NCBI RefSeq assembly: GCF_016908635.1
Contig: NZ_JAFBEG010000022.1
Coordinates: forward strand, 1 to 32,341
Source of the DNA: Sporohalobacter salinus
Lineage (GTDB): Bacteria; Bacillota; Halanaerobiia; Halobacteroidales; Acetohalobiaceae
DNA: 32,341 nucleotides
Direction: 5' to 3'
Shown here: piece by piece, positions 20,401 through 32,141 of the stretch
How the letters are laid out: each line of letters starts with the position of its first letter
Numbering within the stretch: the first letter of the stretch is position 1
The notes under the pieces: model-generated
Seen by the model: only the letters and a program-made list of their open reading frames with translations
The model's database searches: none
What the model was told of the DNA's origin: nothing
Program-made: the position numbers and the translations under genes

Positions 20401-21633
20401 TTGGTAGTTTTGAATTTTAGAAGGTTTAAGTATTCTGCAATAGAGACCTTAATTTTAAATTTAATTATTTTTGGCATCTATTTCATGTTTAATCCGGCTC
20501 GAGAAGAATTTTTAACTTTGAATGTACATCCTTTGTTAATAGTTACAGCAGTTATCTCATTACGGTATGGGAATTATTTAGGTCTATTGAGTGCGACAAT
20601 TGCTTCATTTACATTTGGTACTGCTTATTATTTATTAGGTAAAGATTTATATCTTTTAGTGATGGATTTTAAATATTATAAATTTTTATTAATGTTTTAC
20701 TTTGCTGCTGTACTATTAGGACGATTTAGAGATAATTATGAAATGAAATTACGTAATCGGAAACGGGAATATCAACAGTTGAAAACAAATTATGATCAGC
20801 TGCAGAAGAATTATGAACAGATTGAAATGGTAAATAGTGAATTAAAGAAGCAGATTGTAGAAGCGGAGGATAGTATTTTATCTCTTTATCAGATAGCTTC
20901 TTCATTAGAAAGGTTAGATTCTGAAGAAGTTTATACAGAAGTGATGGGGGTTTTGACTAAGTTTTTGGAAGCAGAAGTGGTTTCGATCTATCTGTTAAAT
21001 GATAGAGGGGATTTTTTACGTTTGAAACTTAGATTAGGAGAAGAGAGCAGGCTGCAGAATTCTATTGAACTGGAAGAGTTTTCTGCTTTGCAGTTAGTAG
21101 TTTCAGAACAGAAAGTTATAAAAAAGAGCGGCCAACATAGGAGAGATACTCCATTGCTGTCAGCTCCGATCATAAATCAAGAAGAAGTTATAGGGATAAT
21201 TAATATTGAGAAGATGAATTTTAATCGAGTTACAGATTATAATTATAATTTATTTAAGATAATCATTGATTGGATTAATCAGGCTTTAGCTAGAGCTGTG
21301 TTAGTAGAAGATAGAACTAATGGAACTAAGTATCATAAAGAGACTGGAATTATGAAATATGAAGACTTTAAAGAGAGGCTTGCTGAGGAAAAAAAGCGTA
21401 AGGAACGTTATGGAATGGAGTATAGTTTATTGAAATTTAAGAATAAGGCGCTTGCTTTAGTTGATATCGATAGAAAGTTTCAACAATTAGTGAGAGGTGT
21501 CGATGTAATAAGTTATGACCAACAACAAGATATAATTTATGTTCTTCTTCCAGCGACTCCGCGTAAGTTTATACCTAAAATTGAAGATAGAATACTTGCA
21601 GTTTTTAATGAAGAAGTGGAGCGATTAGAATGA
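20401..21633 (+). CDS. pelD: PelD-like c-di-GMP receptor of Pel polysaccharide synthesis
   Basis: PelD is the inner-membrane protein that switches on Pel polysaccharide synthesis when it binds cyclic di-GMP. This 410-residue protein has the family layout: about four membrane helices (residues 13-105), a coiled coil (about 110-160), a GAF domain (about 160-300) and a degenerate GGDEF-like domain. No GGDEF active site is present, but an RxxD inhibitory-site motif, RGVD at residues 365-368, is preserved. It falls at the same place as the c-di-GMP contact pair R367/D370 of Pseudomonas PelD. The start is TTG 20401 or TTG 20410, both with weak ribosome binding sites, so translation may be low. Its stop overlaps the next start (ATGA). 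Confidence 0.85.
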   Translation: MVVLNFRRFKYSAIETLILNLIIFGIYFMFNPAREEFLTLNVHPLLIVTAVISLRYGNYLGLLSATIASFTFGTAYYLLGKDLYLLVMDFKYYKFLLMFYFAAVLLGRFRDNYEMKLRNRKREYQQLKTNYDQLQKNYEQIEMVNSELKKQIVEAEDSILSLYQIASSLERLDSEEVYTEVMGVLTKFLEAEVVSIYLLNDRGDFLRLKLRLGEESRLQNSIELEEFSALQLVVSEQKVIKKSGQHRRDTPLLSAPIINQEEVIGIINIEKMNFNRVTDYNYNLFKIIIDWINQALARAVLVEDRTNGTKYHKETGIMKYEDFKERLAEEKKRKERYGMEYSLLKFKNKALALVDIDRKFQQLVRGVDVISYDQQQDIIYVLLPATPRKFIPKIEDRILAVFNEEVERLE

Positions 21634-23459
21634 TTAAAAAGAAGTACTTTTTTTATTTAATGTTAATTATTCTAGTGTCTGCTTTGTTAGTTCAAGTTTT
21701 TAAGTCAGGGAGAATAGAGAGAATTTTAAGAGTTAATCAAAAGCAAGCTAAACAGGAGTTTGAAACTGTGTCTGCGTCATTACCTGAGAAATATCAACGG
21801 GTATTAGTTGCTTATTCTCGTGAAACGGAATCAACTAATAAAATTTATCAAAATATTTATCATACTTTTCGCTTAGCCAAGATACAGGCTGAGTTTTGTA
21901 GTATAGACTCTACAGATTTAGCTGCCAAAATAGATAATTTAACTAGTAATGATTTGTTAGTAATAGCTGCTGAAGATCTTAATCGTTTGAATGAAGATAA
22001 GGTAGTTTTAAATCATGTTGCAAATGGAGGTAAGGTTGTCTTTTTAATTAGATCTTATTATCCGGAGTTTAATAACTTAGTAGGAATTGAGAGTTTTAAA
22101 GGAGAGAAGTTAGTAACTGGTTTTAAGTTTGAACAGGGACTTTTTCCTGGGCTTGATGGACTAGAAATTGAGACTGCTAAAATTAATAATTCTATTCTTG
22201 ATGTTGAGCTTAAATCAAAAGTAGAGGTTTTGGCTACAGCTCAAAAGGAGCCTTTAATTTGGTTAAATAATTATGGGCAGGGAAAAGTATTATATGTTAA
22301 TTCTAATTTAATGGAACATAAATATAATCGTGGTTTATTGTTACAGTATATTTCTTATTTAACAGATTATTTTTTAACTACTATTTTTAATGGTAAGTTA
22401 GTTAATATTGATGACTTTCCTGCGCCGATTAAGCAGGGAAAAGATGATATTATTTATGAGCAGTATCATATGACTAATCGACAATTTTATAAGAATATTT
22501 GGTGGTCTGCTCTTTATAATATGAGTCAAAGATATAATTTGAAGTATACGGGGTTGGTGATTGGAAGTTATAATCTTCAGACTTCAGGTTCTTTACCAGA
22601 TTTTTATCAACAGAATTTAGAAGATATTAAGTATTTTGGTCGTCGCTTAGCAGAAGCAGGAGGAGAATTAGGGATTCATGGATATAATCATAATTCTTTA
22701 GCCTTAGCTGGAGAGATGAATTTTAATGAATACGGTTATTATCCTTGGGAGTCTCGACTGGTAATGGAGAAAGGGTTGATGAAGTTAAAGAAAGCATTAA
22801 AGAGTATGTATGGGGATATTAATGTTTATACTTATGTACCTCCATCTAATATTATTTCTCGCACTGGGAAGATAGCAGTTAAGAATATTTTTCCGGAATT
22901 GAAGGTGTTGGCAGGTCTATATACAGCTTCTAAAGAGCAGGGAATTTTAAAGCAGGAATTTGGCCCAGATCCTGACTTGCCAGGAGTCTATTGTTTGCCG
23001 CGGTTGAGCTCAGGTTATGATTATAATCCGAGTATTATGTGGAATATATATAATGGAATTGCTCATTATGGTATCTTTAATCACTTTATACATCCTGATG
23101 ATTTGTTGGATGAACAGCGTAGAAAGGGAAGAACATGGCGTGAGTTAAAAAATAATTTAGAACAAATTTTTAGCAATCTTTATAGTCATTATTCTTTCTT
23201 ACAGCCGATGACGAATTTAGAAGGTTATATGAATTATCGGAAGCTAGAAGATTTAGAAGTCTATTCTTATCAGCGTGAAGATGTTATTTATATTCATTAT
23301 CGGCAGGGAGTTATGCCGGTTAATCACTTTTTGCGGCTGAGAACAGGTCGGATTAGTCAGGTTCAGGGGGGAGATTTTCAGTTATTAAAGGAATATGGTG
23401 ATCATAGATTATACTTTATTACCGGTAAGCAGTCGGTTGTGAAGATTGAATTAAGGTGA
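21630..23459 (+). CDS. PelA-like membrane-anchored polysaccharide deacetylase (DUF2194 type)
   Basis: The 609-residue protein has one N-terminal membrane helix (residues 6-24). A Rossmann-like domain at about 55-245 (RVLVAYSRETEST, LLVIAAEDLNRL, NGGKVVFLI, GKVLYVNSN) recalls the middle domain of PelA. A carbohydrate-esterase domain from about 255 to 560 shows a paired Asp261-Asp262 (IDDFPAP) and HxxxH metal ligands His350 and His354 (LGIHGYNHNS), so deacetylase chemistry is likely. The GH166 hydrolase domain at the N-terminus of Pseudomonas PelA is missing, as in the deacetylase-only PelA described for Bacillus cereus pel clusters. It overlaps pelD by 4 bp. Partial deacetylation of the GalNAc-rich polymer outside the membrane is the likely role. 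Confidence 0.82.
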   Translation: MIKKKYFFYLMLIILVSALLVQVFKSGRIERILRVNQKQAKQEFETVSASLPEKYQRVLVAYSRETESTNKIYQNIYHTFRLAKIQAEFCSIDSTDLAAKIDNLTSNDLLVIAAEDLNRLNEDKVVLNHVANGGKVVFLIRSYYPEFNNLVGIESFKGEKLVTGFKFEQGLFPGLDGLEIETAKINNSILDVELKSKVEVLATAQKEPLIWLNNYGQGKVLYVNSNLMEHKYNRGLLLQYISYLTDYFLTTIFNGKLVNIDDFPAPIKQGKDDIIYEQYHMTNRQFYKNIWWSALYNMSQRYNLKYTGLVIGSYNLQTSGSLPDFYQQNLEDIKYFGRRLAEAGGELGIHGYNHNSLALAGEMNFNEYGYYPWESRLVMEKGLMKLKKALKSMYGDINVYTYVPPSNIISRTGKIAVKNIFPELKVLAGLYTASKEQGILKQEFGPDPDLPGVYCLPRLSSGYDYNPSIMWNIYNGIAHYGIFNHFIHPDDLLDEQRRKGRTWRELKNNLEQIFSNLYSHYSFLQPMTNLEGYMNYRKLEDLEVYSYQREDVIYIHYRQGVMPVNHFLRLRTGRISQVQGGDFQLLKEYGDHRLYFITGKQSVVKIELR

Positions 23460-23463
23460 TTTT

Positions 23464-24426
23464 ATGAATCTACTTTATTGGATATTTAATTTAATAATAA
23501 CAGCAGTAGAAATTACTATTTTAATTTTTATGTTTTATAAAGCTTATTTTAGCTTGGAATTATTTATTATCTGTCACTTATTAATTAGCCTACTTTATTG
23601 GCGCTTAAACAGACAATTGAAGAATAATTTTTCGCTAGCTTATTATTTAGTTTTATTAATGCCGGGAATTGGTTTAGTAGTAGTAACGATTATTAATTTT
23701 TTATTACAGGCTAAGGGGACTAGCGACGGACTAATATCTGATTATGAAGAGTATTTATCTTTTGTAGAAAGCTTTACAGAGGAGACGGAAGTTGATTTAG
23801 ATGAGGAGTTAAATCAACTTAGTATATTGGACAAGCTCAAGTATAGTAGTGAACAAGAGAAGAAGCAGGCTATCATTAATTTTACTACTGAAGATATATC
23901 ACTGCAGGTTGATATTCTCAAAGAAGCTTTGACTGATGATAATCCAGAGGTTGCTCACTATGCTGCATCAACGCTTAATCTTTTGGAAACAAATTTTGAA
24001 GAGAAAATTGAAGAGTTAATGATAGAGTATCGCCAGACAAATGAGATAGACTATTTGGGAGAATTAATTGAAGAATATGAGTATTATATTGAATCTAGCT
24101 TATTGAAGGCAGAGGTTAAATCAGTTTATGTACAGGATTATATTGAAATCTTGTTGGAAGCAAAAGAAAAGTTTAAGTCAGTATATGAGATTGATTTAAA
24201 GCTGACCAAAGCTTATAAACAGTTAGAAAAATATGAAAAGGCTATAGGTTTATTACAGGAATTGATTAAACAGTATCCCTATCGATATGAAGCTTATTTA
24301 AAATTAATGGAATTATATTATGATTTAGATCAGGAAAGTAAGATGTTGGAATTAATAGAGAAGATAGAGGGATTAGAGATTCATTTGCCAGAAGAAGTGA
24401 GAAAGCAGATTGAATTTTGGCAGTAG
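23464..24426 (+). CDS. pelE: PelE-like membrane TPR protein
   Basis: A 320-residue protein with about three membrane helices in the first 80 residues and a long helical cytosolic part. Residues from about 140 to 320 resemble HEAT/TPR repeats (ALTDDNPEVAHYAASTLNLL; AYKQLEKYEKAIGLLQELIK; AYLKLMELYYDLDQESKML). PelE in Pseudomonas has the same arrangement and length and forms a complex with PelD, PelF and PelG that tethers the glycosyltransferase to the membrane. Sequence alone is not diagnostic; the position between a PelA-like deacetylase and PelF is what settles the call. A GGTG ribosome binding site overlaps the end of the previous gene. Confidence 0.78.
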   Translation: MNLLYWIFNLIITAVEITILIFMFYKAYFSLELFIICHLLISLLYWRLNRQLKNNFSLAYYLVLLMPGIGLVVVTIINFLLQAKGTSDGLISDYEEYLSFVESFTEETEVDLDEELNQLSILDKLKYSSEQEKKQAIINFTTEDISLQVDILKEALTDDNPEVAHYAASTLNLLETNFEEKIEELMIEYRQTNEIDYLGELIEEYEYYIESSLLKAEVKSVYVQDYIEILLEAKEKFKSVYEIDLKLTKAYKQLEKYEKAIGLLQELIKQYPYRYEAYLKLMELYYDLDQESKMLELIEKIEGLEIHLPEEVRKQIEFWQ

Positions 24427-24438
24427 GGAGTGTAGATT

Positions 24439-25857
24439 ATGGAGGTCTGTGTATTACTTGAGGGTTCATATCCTTATGTTGCTGGAGGAGTTTCGTCTTG
24501 GATCTATTTTTTAATGAGTCAGTTATCAGATATAGATTTTAAGTTGGTCTCTATTATGCCTTCACGTAAGGAAGAATTAGATTATAAATATCCTGTTCCG
24601 GATAATGTGTTAGAAATAAAGACTATATATTTAGATGATTTTAAACAGTTGAAAACATCTAGATGGCAAAGAGAGCCTAAAATAGATGATAGAGAAATAG
24701 CTGAATTAACTAAGTTTTTTGGCTGTCAAGAAGATATTGACTGGCAGATGGTAACTGAGATTATTTGTGATTCTAATAGGATAGGCAATGCAGTGGAGTT
24801 TTTACAGAGTAAAACTTTTTGGGAGATTTTACTGAAGGTTTATCAACAGCAGTTTAGCCAACAAGGATTTAATCAATATTTTTGGACTATGCGTTCGATT
24901 TTTTTGCCGGTAATTCATATTATGCAGCAGAAGCTGCCTACGGCTGATATCTATCATTCTCTTGCTACTGGTTATGCAGGTTTGTTGGGGCTTTTGGCAC
25001 AGATTAAATATAATCAAGCTTTTATATTGACTGAACATGGTATTTATGCTCGGGAACGTGAAGAGGAGATTCTTAAAACGGGGTGGATAGAAGGAAACTA
25101 TAAGCAGTTATTAATTGATTTCTTTTATTTTCTATCTACTGGTGTCTATCGAAATGCAGATAGAGTAATTTCTCTGTTTAATCGTAATCGTGAAATTCAG
25201 CTAAAGTTAGGTGCTTTACCTGATAAGACAATGGTATTACCCAATGGGGTTGATTTGGATCGGTTTACGACTGAGAAAGAAGAACATCAAGGATTAAATC
25301 TAGGAGCTATTGTAAGGATAGTACCAATTAAGGATATTAAGACTTTAATTAAAGCTTTTAAGCTTGTAAATAATGAACTATCAAATGTGAAGTTATACTT
25401 AATTGGACCTTATGAAGAGGATAAGGAGTATTATTTGGAGTGTAAAAAATTAATTAAAAAACTGGATTTAGAAGAAGATATAATTATTACAGGTCGAGTG
25501 GAGGTAACAGATTACTTAAAGAAGTTAGATCTTTTAGTTCTAACTTCAATTTCTGAAGGGCAGCCGTTGGTAATGCTAGAGGGATTTGCTGCTGAGATTC
25601 CTTTTGTAGCAACTGATGTAGGTTCTTGTAGGGAATTAATAGAAGGAGGACCTGAAGATGATTTGGGTTCAGCAGGGATTATTACTAATCCGGCTTCTTA
25701 TGTTGAGACAGCAGAGGCAATAATTAAATTATTACAGGATAAAGAATTAAGAACTGAGATGGGGAAAATAGGGTGTAAGAGAGTAGAAAAATATTACAAT
25801 CAAGAAGAATTAGTTAATAATTATCAACAGCTTTATGAGCAGTTAGGAGGTTGTTAA
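24439..25857 (+). CDS. pelF: PelF glycosyltransferase (GT4)
   Basis: PelF is the cytosolic GT-B glycosyltransferase that polymerises the Pel polysaccharide from UDP-sugar. The protein (472 residues) begins with the characteristic CVLLEGSYPYVAGGVSSW. It has PNGVDLDRF at about 268 and the GT4 EX7E motif with Glu373 and Glu381 in EGQPLVMLE. TEHGIYAREREEE is also typical of the family. Length is close to Pseudomonas PelF. It follows pelE by 12 bp and its stop codon shares one base with the pelG start (TAATG). Confidence 0.93.
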   Translation: MEVCVLLEGSYPYVAGGVSSWIYFLMSQLSDIDFKLVSIMPSRKEELDYKYPVPDNVLEIKTIYLDDFKQLKTSRWQREPKIDDREIAELTKFFGCQEDIDWQMVTEIICDSNRIGNAVEFLQSKTFWEILLKVYQQQFSQQGFNQYFWTMRSIFLPVIHIMQQKLPTADIYHSLATGYAGLLGLLAQIKYNQAFILTEHGIYAREREEEILKTGWIEGNYKQLLIDFFYFLSTGVYRNADRVISLFNRNREIQLKLGALPDKTMVLPNGVDLDRFTTEKEEHQGLNLGAIVRIVPIKDIKTLIKAFKLVNNELSNVKLYLIGPYEEDKEYYLECKKLIKKLDLEEDIIITGRVEVTDYLKKLDLLVLTSISEGQPLVMLEGFAAEIPFVATDVGSCRELIEGGPEDDLGSAGIITNPASYVETAEAIIKLLQDKELRTEMGKIGCKRVEKYYNQEELVNNYQQLYEQLGGC

Positions 25858-27263
25858 TGGCAGGAATTGGGTTTGAATTAAAAGAGTTATTTGCTGAGGA
25901 TTTATTTACTAAAAGAATTAAAGCCTATCTTTACTCTATGATTGTAGCTGCAGGTCCCTGGATAATTACTACTATAACTATTAATCTCTTTGTTTTAGTA
26001 GCTAAATATTATTTTTCTGATTTAGGTCAAAGAGATTTATTTATGGGGACAATTATCTATAGTTTTGTATTTTCACAACTACTTACTGCTCCTTGTCAGC
26101 TCTTAATTACTAGATATATTGCTGATCAATTATATCAGAAAACTTATGGTTATGTTAAAGCTTCTTTTATGGGACTTAATAAAATAATTTTAGCTATAGG
26201 ATTAGTAGTGAGTATTGGCTATTATTTTGATAAACCGCTGCCGTTAGATTATAAATTTATGGCTAGTGGTTTGTTTATTTTGATATCTTTAATTTGGATT
26301 ATTACAATTTATCTTAGTACAATTAGAAATTACGGTGTGATCGTTCTAGCTTATAGTGTGGGTAGTATTATTTCGTTAATTTTAGCTATAATTTTAATGA
26401 ATTATCCTCTTAATTTACAAGGATATATTTATGCTGGTAATTTATTATTTAGTTATTTAGTAGGGGTAGTTATAATTTATGGTATTTTATTATATAATTT
26501 TTTGTCTTCATTTCCTTTTGTTAATAACAAAGAGTATGATTTCTTAGGTTATGTCAAGAAATTTCCTAGTTTAATTTTTATTGGATTATTTTATATATTA
26601 GGACTTTGGATTGATGATATTTTAATGTGGTATAGTTCACTAAGTGTTAATATTTATGAAGTCTATCGTTATGCTCCTTTATATGATAATGCTGTATTTT
26701 TATCTTATTTGACTATTATTCCAACGATGATGTTGTTTATGGTGTCGGTAGAGACGGAGTTTTATGATCTTTATAAGGAGTATTATGGTTTAGTTGTTAA
26801 TAATGCTACTTATGATCAAATTGAAAGAGCACGAAAAGAGATGGTTGGAGTTATTTATCGACAATTAGTTTATACTATGGAATTACAGACTATAATTACG
26901 TTAATTATAATTGTCTTGTCAGGACGGATCTTTACATATTTAGGAATTTCTTTGGCGGTTAAGGAGATATTTATGATTTGTGTTTTAGGATCGCTATGTA
27001 ATATATTTCTATTTTTAATCTTTTTAATTTTACTCTATTTTGAAGCGCGTAGTTATTCATTAGTAATAGCTAGTGTCTTTTTTATTAGCAATTTAGTTTT
27101 CACGCTGTATTTTATTCCTAAAGGAGAAGTATTTTACGGCTGTGGATATTTCAGTGGTTCATTTGTTACTTTGATTTTAGCTATTATAATGTTAATTTAC
27201 TTTATGAAGGATATTACATACTATACTTTTTCTAGTCAACCCTTCTTCGAAGAGAAAGAATAA
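25857..27263 (+). CDS. pelG: PelG polysaccharide transporter (MOP/Wzx-like)
   Basis: PelG is the polytopic inner-membrane protein thought to move the Pel polymer across the membrane. From ATG 25857 it has 468 residues, starts with the family signature MAGIGFELKELF, and contains about twelve hydrophobic helices. Acidic residues in the loop around DDILMWYSSLSVN and the segment VSVETEFYDLYKEYY also match my memory of the family. AGGAGG lies 6 nt upstream, inside pelF. It is the last pel gene; no pelB or pelC follows. No terminator is seen before the next promoter. Confidence 0.9.
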   Translation: MAGIGFELKELFAEDLFTKRIKAYLYSMIVAAGPWIITTITINLFVLVAKYYFSDLGQRDLFMGTIIYSFVFSQLLTAPCQLLITRYIADQLYQKTYGYVKASFMGLNKIILAIGLVVSIGYYFDKPLPLDYKFMASGLFILISLIWIITIYLSTIRNYGVIVLAYSVGSIISLILAIILMNYPLNLQGYIYAGNLLFSYLVGVVIIYGILLYNFLSSFPFVNNKEYDFLGYVKKFPSLIFIGLFYILGLWIDDILMWYSSLSVNIYEVYRYAPLYDNAVFLSYLTIIPTMMLFMVSVETEFYDLYKEYYGLVVNNATYDQIERARKEMVGVIYRQLVYTMELQTIITLIIIVLSGRIFTYLGISLAVKEIFMICVLGSLCNIFLFLIFLILLYFEARSYSLVIASVFFISNLVFTLYFIPKGEVFYGCGYFSGSFVTLILAIIMLIYFMKDITYYTFSSQPFFEEKE

Positions 27264-29467: not shown

Positions 29468-29577
29468 TTGCATATATTGTGCTTTTATAGTAATATATTA
29501 ACATAAATAATCATTATTTCTTAGAATGCTTTTTATTTAACATTATTTTGATAAATAGATGTAATATATGCTAAAAT
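29468..29577 (+). promoter_or_regulatory. Two promoters upstream of RNA copy 1
   Basis: Distal: TTGCAT (29468-29473)-17 bp-TAATAT (29491-29496). Proximal: TTGATA (29548-29553)-18 bp-TAAAAT (29572-29577) with an extended -10 TG one base upstream. The proximal start would fall about 25 nt before the structured RNA. The same two-promoter arrangement recurs at RNA copy 2. Confidence 0.6.
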
Positions 29578-29607
29578 TCATAAAATGTATGTTACTAAAA
29601 ATAATAT

Positions 29608-29707
29608 AAAAGCAAGGAAGTATAACTCGTGTTTGGTTGCTGGAGTTATACGGAGCTAATGGCAAACCCACTTGTAGTCTTAAAAGATTACAAGTGTTAT
29701 TTTTTTG
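29608..29707 (+). ncRNA. Structured leader/small RNA, copy 1
   Basis: Hairpin GTATAACTC (29620-29628) / GAGTTATAC (29643-29651) encloses a 14-nt loop. Loop GGTTGCT (29635-29641) can pair with GGCAAACC (29661-29668) if one A is bulged, giving a pseudoknot. A 12-bp hairpin follows at 29669-29680 / 29685-29696, then GTTATTTTTTT, which looks like an intrinsic terminator. The joining segment CGGAGCTAAT is nearly invariant in the three copies. The element ends 42 nt before the lipoprotein start. It is either a riboswitch-like leader of that gene or a separate small RNA. I could not match it to a known class. Confidence 0.75.
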
Positions 29708-29737
29708 TAAAAATAAGGAATTGGAAGGAGTAAAGAA

Positions 29738-30562
29738 ATGAAGAAAGTATTGACCTTATTAATTGTAATAGTAGTAGTATTAGTTGGCTGTAATCAAGAT
29801 TTAAAAGCGAATGAAGAGGAGTTGCTGAATTTTTTAGAGGAATTAAAAGGAGTAGAATATAACGTAAGTAAATTTAGAATGTATTTTGATAGATATTCAA
29901 AAAGAGAAGAGAAGTTTACAGAGCAGTTTTATAAAGATTTTATTAATGGAGATGTGGAGTTTATAACTCCTGAGTATGAAACTAATAATCTTAATGAGTC
30001 TAAGTTTAGAAAATATACCAAGAAATATTCGGGGTTAGTTTTTAAAATAGGAAGAGTATTAAATAATGAAACTATTGTAGATATTAAAGAAGCTCATTAT
30101 AATTTTAAGGTATATCAAATTAATTTTGATGATAATGAGACAAATGGAAAAGAGGAAGTGTTTTATAGTAGTGGATATTGGAATGAAAAAGGAATAGATA
30201 ATGATGGAATATATGAAGTTTTAAATGATTCAAGTGAACAAAAAGCACCTTATTATGATTATAAGGGTTGGCTAGGAGAACAGGTTGTTGAGGCTGAGTA
30301 TGTAGAGAAAGAAAAGGAACGAACTAAGGATTATAATGGACTAATAAAATATAAAGGAAGATATTATATTTATGAAATTTTGAATTGGGATACAAGAATA
30401 ATGATAAGTTTTTACAGTTGGAATAAAGAATTAAATCAAGTGACTTGTATGGTAAATTATAAACTGAGTCTTAAAGGAGAAAATAAGAAAAGTAAGTCAG
30501 ATGAAGATGAATTTGTAATGGATACGGAAAGTTTATATGAAAACATGAAAGAAAGAGAATAA
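29738..30562 (+). CDS. Lipoprotein of unknown function
   Basis: A 274-residue protein with a lipoprotein signal peptide: MKK, a hydrophobic core of about twelve residues, then lipobox LVGC with Cys18 as the lipidation site. The mature part is highly charged (many Lys, Glu) and rich in Tyr, with no motif I recognise; strands such as GLIKYKGRYYIYEIL suggest a beta-rich domain. GGAAGGAG is well placed before the ATG. The gene lies directly behind structured RNA copy 1, which could control it. No terminator follows within the next 70 bp. Confidence 0.75.
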   Translation: MKKVLTLLIVIVVVLVGCNQDLKANEEELLNFLEELKGVEYNVSKFRMYFDRYSKREEKFTEQFYKDFINGDVEFITPEYETNNLNESKFRKYTKKYSGLVFKIGRVLNNETIVDIKEAHYNFKVYQINFDDNETNGKEEVFYSSGYWNEKGIDNDGIYEVLNDSSEQKAPYYDYKGWLGEQVVEAEYVEKEKERTKDYNGLIKYKGRYYIYEILNWDTRIMISFYSWNKELNQVTCMVNYKLSLKGENKKSKSDEDEFVMDTESLYENMKERE

Positions 30563-30634
30563 AGTTGTCTAAATTGCTATAATTTTATTTGTAATTACTT
30601 TCAAAAGTAGTATTAAAAAATATTTTAGAATAAT

Positions 30635-30663
30635 TTGCATATTTTTAGGTTATATGGTAAAAT
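30635..30663 (+). promoter_or_regulatory. Distal promoter, cassette A
   Basis: TTGCAT (30635-30640), 17 bp, TAAAAT (30658-30663), with an extended -10 TG. The identical 43-bp box begins 8 bp after this -10, about where transcription should start. Confidence 0.65.
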
Positions 30664-30670
30664 GTCAATA

Positions 30671-30713
30671 TGAATAATTATTACCTATTGAATAAATATT
30701 ACTTATTCTAAAA
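30671..30713. promoter_or_regulatory. 43-bp conserved box, copy A
   Basis: The 43 bases are identical to 31456-31498, although the flanks have diverged. An outer inverted repeat, GAATAA (30672-30677) and TTATTC (30703-30708), encloses a further GAATAA. It could be an operator at the start point or a structured 5' end of the distal transcript. Confidence 0.5.
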
Positions 30714-30735
30714 GTCTGTTTCAATTAATATTATT

Positions 30736-30765
30736 TTGACGAATAAAGATAATTTATGTTAAAGT
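30736..30765 (+). promoter_or_regulatory. Proximal promoter, cassette A
   Basis: TTGACG (30736-30741), 18 bp, TAAAGT (30760-30765), with an extended -10 TG. It aligns with the proximal promoter of RNA copy 1. Confidence 0.6.
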
Positions 30766-30797
30766 TTTATAGGATATATGCTGTTAAAGAATAATAT

Positions 30798-30898
30798 AAG
30801 AGCGAAGAAGTGTAACTCATGTTTGGTTGCCGGAGTTATGCAGAGCTAATGGCAAATCCACCTGTAGTCTTTCAAAAGATTACAGGTCTTTATATTTT
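30798..30898 (+). ncRNA. Structured leader/small RNA, copy 2
   Basis: Hairpin GTGTAACTC (30810-30818) / GAGTTATGC (30833-30841): two pairs that are U-A and A-U in copy 1 are U-G and G-U here. Loop GGTTGCC (30825-30831) can pair with GGCAAATC (30851-30858) with one bulged A; C-G replaces the U-G of copy 1 at the closing end. The second hairpin is 30860-30871 / 30876-30887, followed by CTTTATATTTT, a weaker T-tract than copy 1. The element lies about 100 nt before the membrane-protein start, with a non-conserved spacer between. Confidence 0.75.
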
Positions 30899-30999
30899 AA
30901 TATATGAAAAATTATACAAAGCGGATGGGCTATATTAGAGGATGATTATTTAAAAGTGAAAATTGAGAAGAGGAAAAATATATAGCGGGAGTGATGAAT

Positions 31000-31386
31000 T
31001 TGGCATTTAAAGATAATTGGAAAGATATAATAATTGTAATACTTGGAATAGGTTTGACTCAAATTATATGTGGGATTTTAGTTGTTAATTTATTTTCTAT
31101 GGATTGTTTAACTAAGGGGAAATTTCTTGTTGTATTATTCTCCGTATTTATAGGAGGAATAATATATGCCTTTAGATATAATCAGATTGTTTATTGTGAT
31201 ATTTTACTTATCTTAGGTTTATTATCTGTTAGTAGTATATTCAAAACTATTAAAGTAAGAACTTCTGCTATTATCGGTTTTTTTAGCTGTATAGGAATTG
31301 GTTTGTTAGTTTTTAGATTAGGAATATTTACTGGTTACTTAATTAATAGAAATAATCAGCAAGAAATTAAGAATAATAAAATGTAA
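31000..31386 (+). CDS. Four-TM membrane protein, paralogue A
   Basis: A small hydrophobic protein (128 residues from TTG 31000) with about four membrane helices (roughly residues 10-32, 41-58, 66-80 and 88-114) and a short charged C-terminal tail. I recognise no family. It is a little under 60% identical by hand alignment to the product at 31761-32141; the best kept stretches are NLFSMD, FIGGIIY, LLVFRLG and GYLIN. I prefer the TTG start because GGGAGTG at 30987-30993 is spaced correctly for it and the same arrangement recurs in the paralogue; GTG 30991 and ATG 30994 overlap that ribosome binding site. The gene lies downstream of structured RNA copy 2. Confidence 0.65.
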   Translation: MAFKDNWKDIIIVILGIGLTQIICGILVVNLFSMDCLTKGKFLVVLFSVFIGGIIYAFRYNQIVYCDILLILGLLSVSSIFKTIKVRTSAIIGFFSCIGIGLLVFRLGIFTGYLINRNNQQEIKNNKM

Positions 31387-31419
31387 AAGTTAGCATATAA
31401 AATATATTTTAGAAATAAT

Positions 31420-31448
31420 TTGCATATCTTTAACTTATATGGTAAAGT
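31420..31448 (+). promoter_or_regulatory. Distal promoter, cassette B
   Basis: TTGCAT (31420-31425), 17 bp, TAAAGT (31443-31448). Downstream, TTGTCG at 31521-31526 is a remnant of the proximal -35, but the only candidate -10 (TATAAG, 31538-31543) is 11 bp away. The distal promoter is therefore probably the only one left. Confidence 0.6.
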
Positions 31449-31455
31449 ATCTACA

Positions 31456-31498
31456 TGAATAATTATTACCTATTGAATAAATATTACTTATTCTAAAA
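31456..31498. promoter_or_regulatory. 43-bp conserved box, copy B
   Basis: Base-for-base identical to 30671-30713, and at the same 8-bp distance from the distal -10. See copy A for its inverted repeat. Confidence 0.5.
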
Positions 31499-31540
31499 AT
31501 CTATTTTAATTAATATTGTCTTGTCGAATGAAAATGATAT

Positions 31541-31640
31541 AAGAGCGAAGAAGTATAACTTACGTCTGGTTGCCTAAGTTATACGGAGCTAATGGCAAAC
31601 CCACCTGTAGTCTGTTTAAAAGATTACAGGTTTTTATATT
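31541..31640 (+). ncRNA. Structured leader/small RNA, copy 3
   Basis: Hairpin GTATAACTT (31553-31561) / AAGTTATAC (31576-31584): the top pair is U-A where copies 1 and 2 have C-G, a true double change. Loop GGTTGCC (31568-31574) can pair with GGCAAACC (31594-31601) with one bulged A. The second hairpin is 31603-31613 / 31621-31631, followed by TTTTTATATTT. The loop of the second hairpin differs in sequence and length from the other copies while the stem is kept. It lies 120-130 nt before paralogue B. Confidence 0.75.
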
Positions 31641-31760
31641 TAATACGAAAAAAACAAAGGTGGTGAGCTAGATAATAAATTAAGTTATTAGATAGGTTAA
31701 CTATTAAAAACAAGATAATGAAAATTGAGAAGAGGAGAAAATATATAGGGAGTGATAAAT

Positions 31761-32141
31761 TTGATATTCAAGGGTGATTGGAAAGATATAATAATTATAA
31801 CACTTGGAATGTTTTTGGTTCAAATTATATGTGCTATTTTAGTTTTTAATTTATTTTCTATGGATTATTTAATTAAGTGGAGAGTGCCTCTTGGATTCTT
31901 TAGCATGTTTATAGGAGGGATAATATATACTTTTAGATATAATCGGATTTCTTATTATGATATTCTATTTATTTTAATTTTGAGTAGTATGAATAGGATA
32001 CCTGAAGTTATTAGGGGAGAAATTTTTGGTATTATTACTTTCTTTATTGGTTTAGGAATTGACTTATTAGTTTTTAGATTAGGAACATTTATTGGTTATT
32101 TAATTAATAAGAATGATCAACAAGAAGCTAAGAAAACGTAA
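31761..32141 (+). CDS. Four-TM membrane protein, paralogue B
   Basis: A 126-residue hydrophobic protein with the same four-helix plan as paralogue A, including the conserved WKDIII start, NLFSMD after helix 1, FIGGIIYTFRYN around helix 2 and LLVFRLG in helix 4. TTG 31761 is spaced correctly behind GGGAGTG (31748-31754); GTG 31752 is inside that ribosome binding site. The family is unknown. The gene stands downstream of structured RNA copy 3. No terminator is seen after it. Confidence 0.65.
   Translation: MIFKGDWKDIIIITLGMFLVQIICAILVFNLFSMDYLIKWRVPLGFFSMFIGGIIYTFRYNRISYYDILFILILSSMNRIPEVIRGEIFGIITFFIGLGIDLLVFRLGTFIGYLINKNDQQEAKKT

Follow-up and report, generated by a model that had tools for sequence, protein, structure and literature searches.

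A c-di-GMP-II-type RNA with an altered pocket, repeated upstream of surface-protein genes in Sporohalobacter salinus, is a predicted terminator-coupled ON switch

Introduction

The window analysed here (the whole 32,341-nt stretch of Sporohalobacter salinus contig NZ_JAFBEG010000022.1) ends in a region where the same RNA-like sequence recurs three times, each time upstream of a small envelope gene, and the question that this locus raises is what kind of RNA is repeated and what it would sense. An earlier note, made from the sequence alone, had described a structured RNA not matched to a known class, and had left a riboswitch ending in a terminator or a multi-copy small RNA as possible readings. 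Here, we propose, with reasonable confidence, that the best explanation overall is a c-di-GMP-II-type, terminator-coupled predicted ON switch, whose ligand is most likely still c-di-GMP.

Results

The repeat unit in the window is an 80-nt aptamer, present on the forward strand (as are the terminators, downstream genes and candidate promoters given below) at 29600-29679 (copy 1), 30790-30869 (copy 2) and 31533-31612 (copy 3), with 85% identity across 88 nt. The triplication of a unit of about 100 nt, which had been placed at 29608, 30798 and 31541, is real, but these starts are about 8 nt late because helix P1 had been overlooked. In copy 1, the fold is built from P1 (29603-29608 with 29673-29678), P2 (29611-29613 with 29655-29657), P3 (29620-29628 with 29643-29651) and the pseudoknot P4 (29635-29641 with 29661-29665 and 29668-29669). 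The three pairings previously drawn in every copy are all in the sequence, while P2, like P1, had been missed; the supposed loop-to-3' pairing with one bulged A is really P4, made of 5 + 2 pairs around the unpaired A69-Y70, and the segment GAGCTAATGG, taken to be nearly fixed and unpaired, includes the 3' strand of P2 (GCU pairing with AGC).

Copies 2 and 3 each belong to one unit of a duplicated ~760-bp cassette, which comprises, with similar spacing, an upstream region (D3), the aptamer, the terminator and a membrane-protein gene (D1); these two copies are therefore not independent, and independent covariation is supplied by wider homologues. The upstream duplication itself covers 146 nt (30611-30756 and 31396-31541) at 83% identity. 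The genome holds six copies in total, the other three being on two small contigs (two on C44, one on C38). The copies on these short contigs (L009 and L010, respectively) adjoin RTX calcium-binding exoprotein genes, and both contigs are probably part of the same repeat-rich locus as the right end of the window, broken in assembly. Candidate promoters precede copy 1 (TTGATA-18-TAAAAT, 29548-29577) and copy 2 (TTGACG-18-TAAAGT, 30736-30765); both are consensus matches only, and they count as weak evidence because the region contains 23 promoter-like matches in total against 18.9 in shuffles.

The compensatory changes listed in the earlier note are present both in the alignment and in the sequence: the C-G pair at 29628/29643 is U-A in copy 3, a U-A and an A-U pair become U-G and G-U in copy 2, the U-A pair at 29672/29693 is C-G in copies 2 and 3, and the closing pair of the pseudoknot alternates between U-G and C-G. 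Wider homologues extend this result: all four helices, pseudoknot included, covary across 42 distinct relatives. The alignment was fitted to R1, a covariance model made from the six copies of this genome, and the fit favours P1-P3, while P4 is absent from R1. In it, 93.9% of cells are paired; shuffling the columns gives 81.5%, with none of 500 shuffles reaching the observed value, and sliding the structure gives 33-39%. Both sides change in 19 of the 24 pairs, including pseudoknot pairs and all five P1 pairs, and two P4 pairs each show double-sided differences in 12 sequences.

Scanning the window against Rfam at gathering scores gave no match. On permissive settings, all three copies match the c-di-GMP-II family (RF01786) over the whole model, at 34.6, 31.1 and 35.9 bits for copies 1 to 3 (E 4.2e-5, 4e-4 and 1.7e-5), and the other three copies of the genome score 38.0, 36.9 and 31.2 bits (E 7.5e-5 to 0.0064). 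All six fall 15-22 bits under the gathering score of 53.5, and family membership was hidden because this threshold exceeds what the copies score. Matches to S10-Clostridia and SNORA79 in the same permissive scan were rejected as chance-level.

The absence of a known class does not hold, since beyond these sub-threshold matches the model R1 recovers canonical c-di-GMP-II RNAs in relatives. R1 finds matches in 12 of the 13 genomes of the order (Halanaerobiales), some of them at places where RF01786 scores above its cut-off; RF01786 in turn, run at E <= 0.01, marks 46 places in the order and not one in 14 control genomes. As these matches are shared across the order, the window RNAs and the canonical c-di-GMP-II RNAs form one continuum. 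Many real c-di-GMP-II RNAs of the Halanaerobiales sit under the Rfam gathering score (21 of the 46 places, the other 25 being above it).

With the canonical class (RF01786, structure 3Q3Z), the window RNAs share the P1-P2-P3-P4 topology, the GAG..A.UG core and U37, G38, G39, A61, A69, C71 and C72, as well as the coupling to a terminator and the kinds of target gene. The GAG..A core, U37, A69 and the pairing of G38-G39 with C71-C72 are invariant in all six copies. From covariation and comparison, the element is a true structured regulatory RNA of known fold, and that this fold is of the c-di-GMP-II type is nearly certain.

What sets these RNAs apart is the pocket. Ligand contacts in 3Q3Z involve A13, A14, U37, G39, U60, A61, C68, A69, A70, C71, C72, G73 and A74 (PMC7288161). 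At positions 69, 70 and 73 the canonical class reads AAG, whereas the window RNAs read A-(C/U)-A, with position 74 mostly C. By the alignment register and this contact list, the pocket of copy 1 (29666-29670) has A69 at 29666, C70 at 29667 in place of the canonical A, and A73 at 29670 in place of the canonical G; copy 2 has A69 (30856), U70 (30857) and A73 (30860), and copy 3 has A69 (31599), C70 (31600) and A73 (31603). C or U at 70 with A at 73 is found in all six genome copies, none of which has the A70 and G73 of the canonical pocket. Canonical RNAs read GUGC-A69-A70-CC-G73 or, within this order, GGUG-A-A-A-CC-G, and covariance-model alignment gives GGCA-A-A69-Y70-CC-A73-C74 for the window RNAs, where U40-A68 replaces the G40-C68 pair of the Rfam consensus.

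Compensatory changes at 38-72 (L085) and 39-71 (Brevibacillus) back the register of this alignment, and on their account we rejected a shifted pseudoknot that would pair G39 with Y70 in a one-bulge reading. An alignment with A70 deleted was rejected as well, because the 68-74 joining segment is equally long in the intermediates ACG and ATG (AAA and AAT also retain the spacing), and an A13-G73 swap was rejected, G13 being common only in part of the Halanaerobiales.

Two Rfam variants, c-di-GMP-II-GAG (RF03169) and c-di-GMP-II-GCG (RF03170), have the same fold and changes at the same three pocket positions. Their names, whose meaning we deduced from the sequences, appear to spell positions 69/70/73, in which case the window RNAs would be 'ACA' or 'AUA'. 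GAG RNAs carry G69-A70..G73, with U37 changed to C in 10 of 10 examples, whereas the window RNAs keep A69 and U37; GCG, read from its name as G69-C70-G73, differs from the A69 and A73 found here. At E <= 0.001, RF03169 matched nowhere in this genome, and the best own copy reached 36.5 bits with RF03170 against the 47.9 bits required. We found no named A69-Y70-A73 variant in Rfam or in the literature searched. As far as sequence comparison goes, these RNAs belong to a known riboswitch family, in which their pocket is a new variant.

C or U at position 70 occurs in 22 of 38 elements in the Halanaerobiales and in 3 of 48 in a rest-of-phylum sample weighted towards lower-scoring matches. In counts that ignore relatedness, A73 is found in 18 of 25 Y70 RNAs vs 2 of 59 A70 RNAs, C74 in 19 of 25 vs 7 of 59, and U40-A68 in 25 of 25 vs 32 of 59. 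Some members with an altered pocket (L066, L057, L058, L075 and L067) already score above the Rfam threshold as plain c-di-GMP-II, and part of the variant group is therefore already annotated under that name.

To follow the altered pocket more widely, a genome collection with one genome per species (84,980 species) was scanned with a pattern that fixes U40 and Y70-A73, and is silent on other combinations, giving 24 matches in 23 stretches; all were inspected, and every one has a P3-like hairpin, the GAG core and P4. Matches come from Orenia, Halanaerobacter, Halonatronum, Clostridium bowmanii, C. senegalense, C. lacusfryxellense, another Clostridium and Brevibacillus fulvus, and further from Acidimicrobiia and other actinobacterial MAGs, an unplaced bacterial MAG and candidate-phyla bacteria; in viral contigs, the pattern gave 0 matches. 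Canonical AAG copies occur alongside in several of these genomes. Aptamers of different code can be close neighbours: AAA and ACA nearly abut in Brevibacillus fulvus (L274), as do AAG and ACG in the genome G004 (L087, contig C4), and in an Acidimicrobiaceae genome (L268) ACG and ATA lie ~350 nt apart.

Each aptamer of the window runs into an intrinsic terminator with a T-tract. In copy 1, this has a 12-pair stem (29669-29696, -12.1 kcal/mol); in copies 2 and 3, the terminator starts from the pocket A73 itself, with 12 pairs (30860-30887) and 11 pairs (31603-31631), both at -14.8 kcal/mol. Terminator-like sites number three, each following a copy, where shuffled sequence would give 0.2 (sd 0.5). 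The 3' strand of P1 lies inside the terminator 5' arm, which starts at A73 in copies 2 and 3 and at C72 in copy 1, where it overlaps P1, the pocket A73 and C72 of P4. Because P1 and pocket nucleotides are shared with this arm, aptamer and terminator are mutually exclusive, and it is from this overlap that an ON switch is predicted. As long as no ligand is bound, formation of the strong terminator (-12 to -15 kcal/mol) would keep the gene off. With ligand bound, P4 and the weak, A/U-rich P1 would be locked, the terminator arm occupied, and RNA polymerase would read through. Each copy would then be a c-di-GMP-II-type aptamer fused to an intrinsic terminator, acting at the level of transcription to turn on genes for surface or exported proteins. 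We consider this ON logic likely; in C. difficile, class II switches turn on pili and adhesins (PMC11477304). Of the two readings of the earlier note, the riboswitch ending in a terminator is strongly supported, as a terminator-coupled, riboswitch-like structured RNA. As a separate observation, the P1 5' strand AATATAA is complementary to the TTTATATT tail 3' of the terminator in copies 2 and 3 and the L009 copies, and this pairing is present in the minimum-energy folds of several copies; it could be A/T-rich chance or a third alternative helix.

Every copy in the genome lies in the 5' leader of a gene that starts ~60-160 nt past the aptamer. In the window, gene 1 (29738-30562) encodes a 274-aa putative lipoprotein with a lipobox-like LVGC and no Pfam or NCBIfam match, and genes 2 (30991-31386, 131 aa) and 3 (31752-32141, 129 aa) encode paralogous small membrane proteins, neither with a Pfam match. 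Genome-wide, the six targets are the putative lipoprotein, three paralogous small membrane proteins, an RDD-family gene and a gene preceding an RTX/lipase-like exoprotein. Such targets are typical of c-di-GMP control: RTX exoprotein and membrane-protein genes here, and pilB, GGDEF, GGDEF-EAL and HD_5 genes in relatives.

Among homologues elsewhere, altered pockets precede pilB operons in Orenia (ACC) and C. senegalense (ACA), and canonical pockets precede the same pilB operon in Halonatronum and other relatives, the PilB proteins of Orenia and Halonatronum being 71% identical. Likewise, a gene of ~180 aa has ACA, ATG or AAT in its leader depending on the genome. Altered pockets also precede one GGDEF gene, one GGDEF-EAL gene and one HD_5-domain gene, hemerythrin and multiheme cytochromes, and, in actinobacterial MAGs and Dojkabacteria, TasA-like and SipW-like genes (named by sequence inspection). 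In G002, a relative of the same family, a large multiheme cytochrome cluster (L326/L327, contig C11, 30000-58000), with up to 14 CxxCH per protein, has two variant riboswitches and starts with a canonical-motif GGDEF gene (GHPAGD) and a GGDEF/HD-type gene.

Discussion

We propose that the ligand is probably still c-di-GMP, despite the changes of A70 to C or U and of G73 to A. Since the same orthologous pilB operons are led by canonical or altered pockets, c-di-GMP is favoured, and we also count for it the changing pocket over the ~180-aa gene, the mixed tandem pairs, the targets in c-di-GMP turnover, the GGDEF genes at the start of the cytochrome cluster with altered pockets, the nearby pelF and pelG, and the mostly canonical Asp of the GGDEF domains. 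On the other side we count the scores under gathering, the change of two of the three variant-naming positions, and the altered and canonical pockets in single genomes, which would be expected if each sensed a different ligand.

It is tempting to speculate that these changes instead re-aim half of the pocket, with U37 and A69 still holding one guanine, towards a hybrid or other cyclic dinucleotide such as 3',3'-cGAMP; we regard this as unlikely, though not negligible. The analogy is with position 20 of the class I aptamer, of unrelated fold, where a pocket change changes the ligand (PMC6456294), and the cGAMP (GEMM-1b) variants of c-di-GMP-I are a precedent for a ligand switch by pocket nucleotides, by logic only. 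The changed positions are among those where the Rfam GAG and GCG variants differ, Y70 and A73 co-occur in the counts given above, which ignore relatedness, and their combination recurs in several phyla. Moreover, both variant copies of G002 lead multiheme cytochromes, which recalls Geobacter, where GEMM-1b cGAMP switches are part of a pathway controlling extracellular metal respiration (PMC6456294). However, pockets swap over the same gene in orthologous switches, canonical and altered codes stand in tandem (AAG with ACG, AAA with ACA), and no Hypr serine was found among the GGDEF domains with a readable motif in the window's genome (G000) and in G001, G002, G005, G007 and G012, where nearly every such domain carries Asp and a few carry Asn. 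The frequent intermediate codes suggest drift that is tolerated, a notion made plausible by a review reporting that class II is less selective than class I, its aptamer having bound every c-di-GMP analogue tested (PMC11477304). That the A69-Y70-A73 RNAs form a distinct class II group with a changed ligand (for example 3',3'-cGAMP), spread over several phyla and largely below the Rfam threshold, is likewise an unlikely reading. Natural RNAs with both 70 and 73 changed, sometimes over one orthologous gene, are a ready test of a new ligand versus tolerated drift. With regard to the GGDEF proteins, one in the window's genome (L148, contig C12) has Asn (GHPAGN) at the nucleotide-selectivity position, and similar motifs occur in G007 and G012.

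A former riboswitch that has decayed and now attenuates transcription only, independently of any ligand, is a much less probable reading. It would fit the low covariance-model scores and the weak P1 (P1+P2+P3 give only -2.6 to -5.6 kcal/mol without P4), but the core is nearly invariant in six copies before mostly unrelated genes, the covariation of P4 is kept, and aptamer and terminator stay together. Least probable is the multi-copy small RNA that the earlier note had offered, here taken as a trans-acting one closed by a terminator. It would suit six copies each with a terminator at its end and is disfavoured by the constant position in a 5' leader, the competition of P1 with the terminator, and homologues before type IV pilus, cytochrome and c-di-GMP turnover genes.

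Two further features of this genome lie outside the riboswitch-gene units. A Pel-type exopolysaccharide cluster (20401-27263) is found in the window a few kb before the riboswitches, and includes a GAF-domain protein in a PelD-like position, a DUF2194/deacetylase protein, a TPR protein, PelF (NF038011) and PelG (PF16933). In other bacteria, the Pel-type exopolysaccharide pathway is linked to c-di-GMP. Elsewhere in the genome, a molybdenum/tungsten cofactor riboswitch (RF01055) scores 62.4 bits at positions 2992-3116 of L011.
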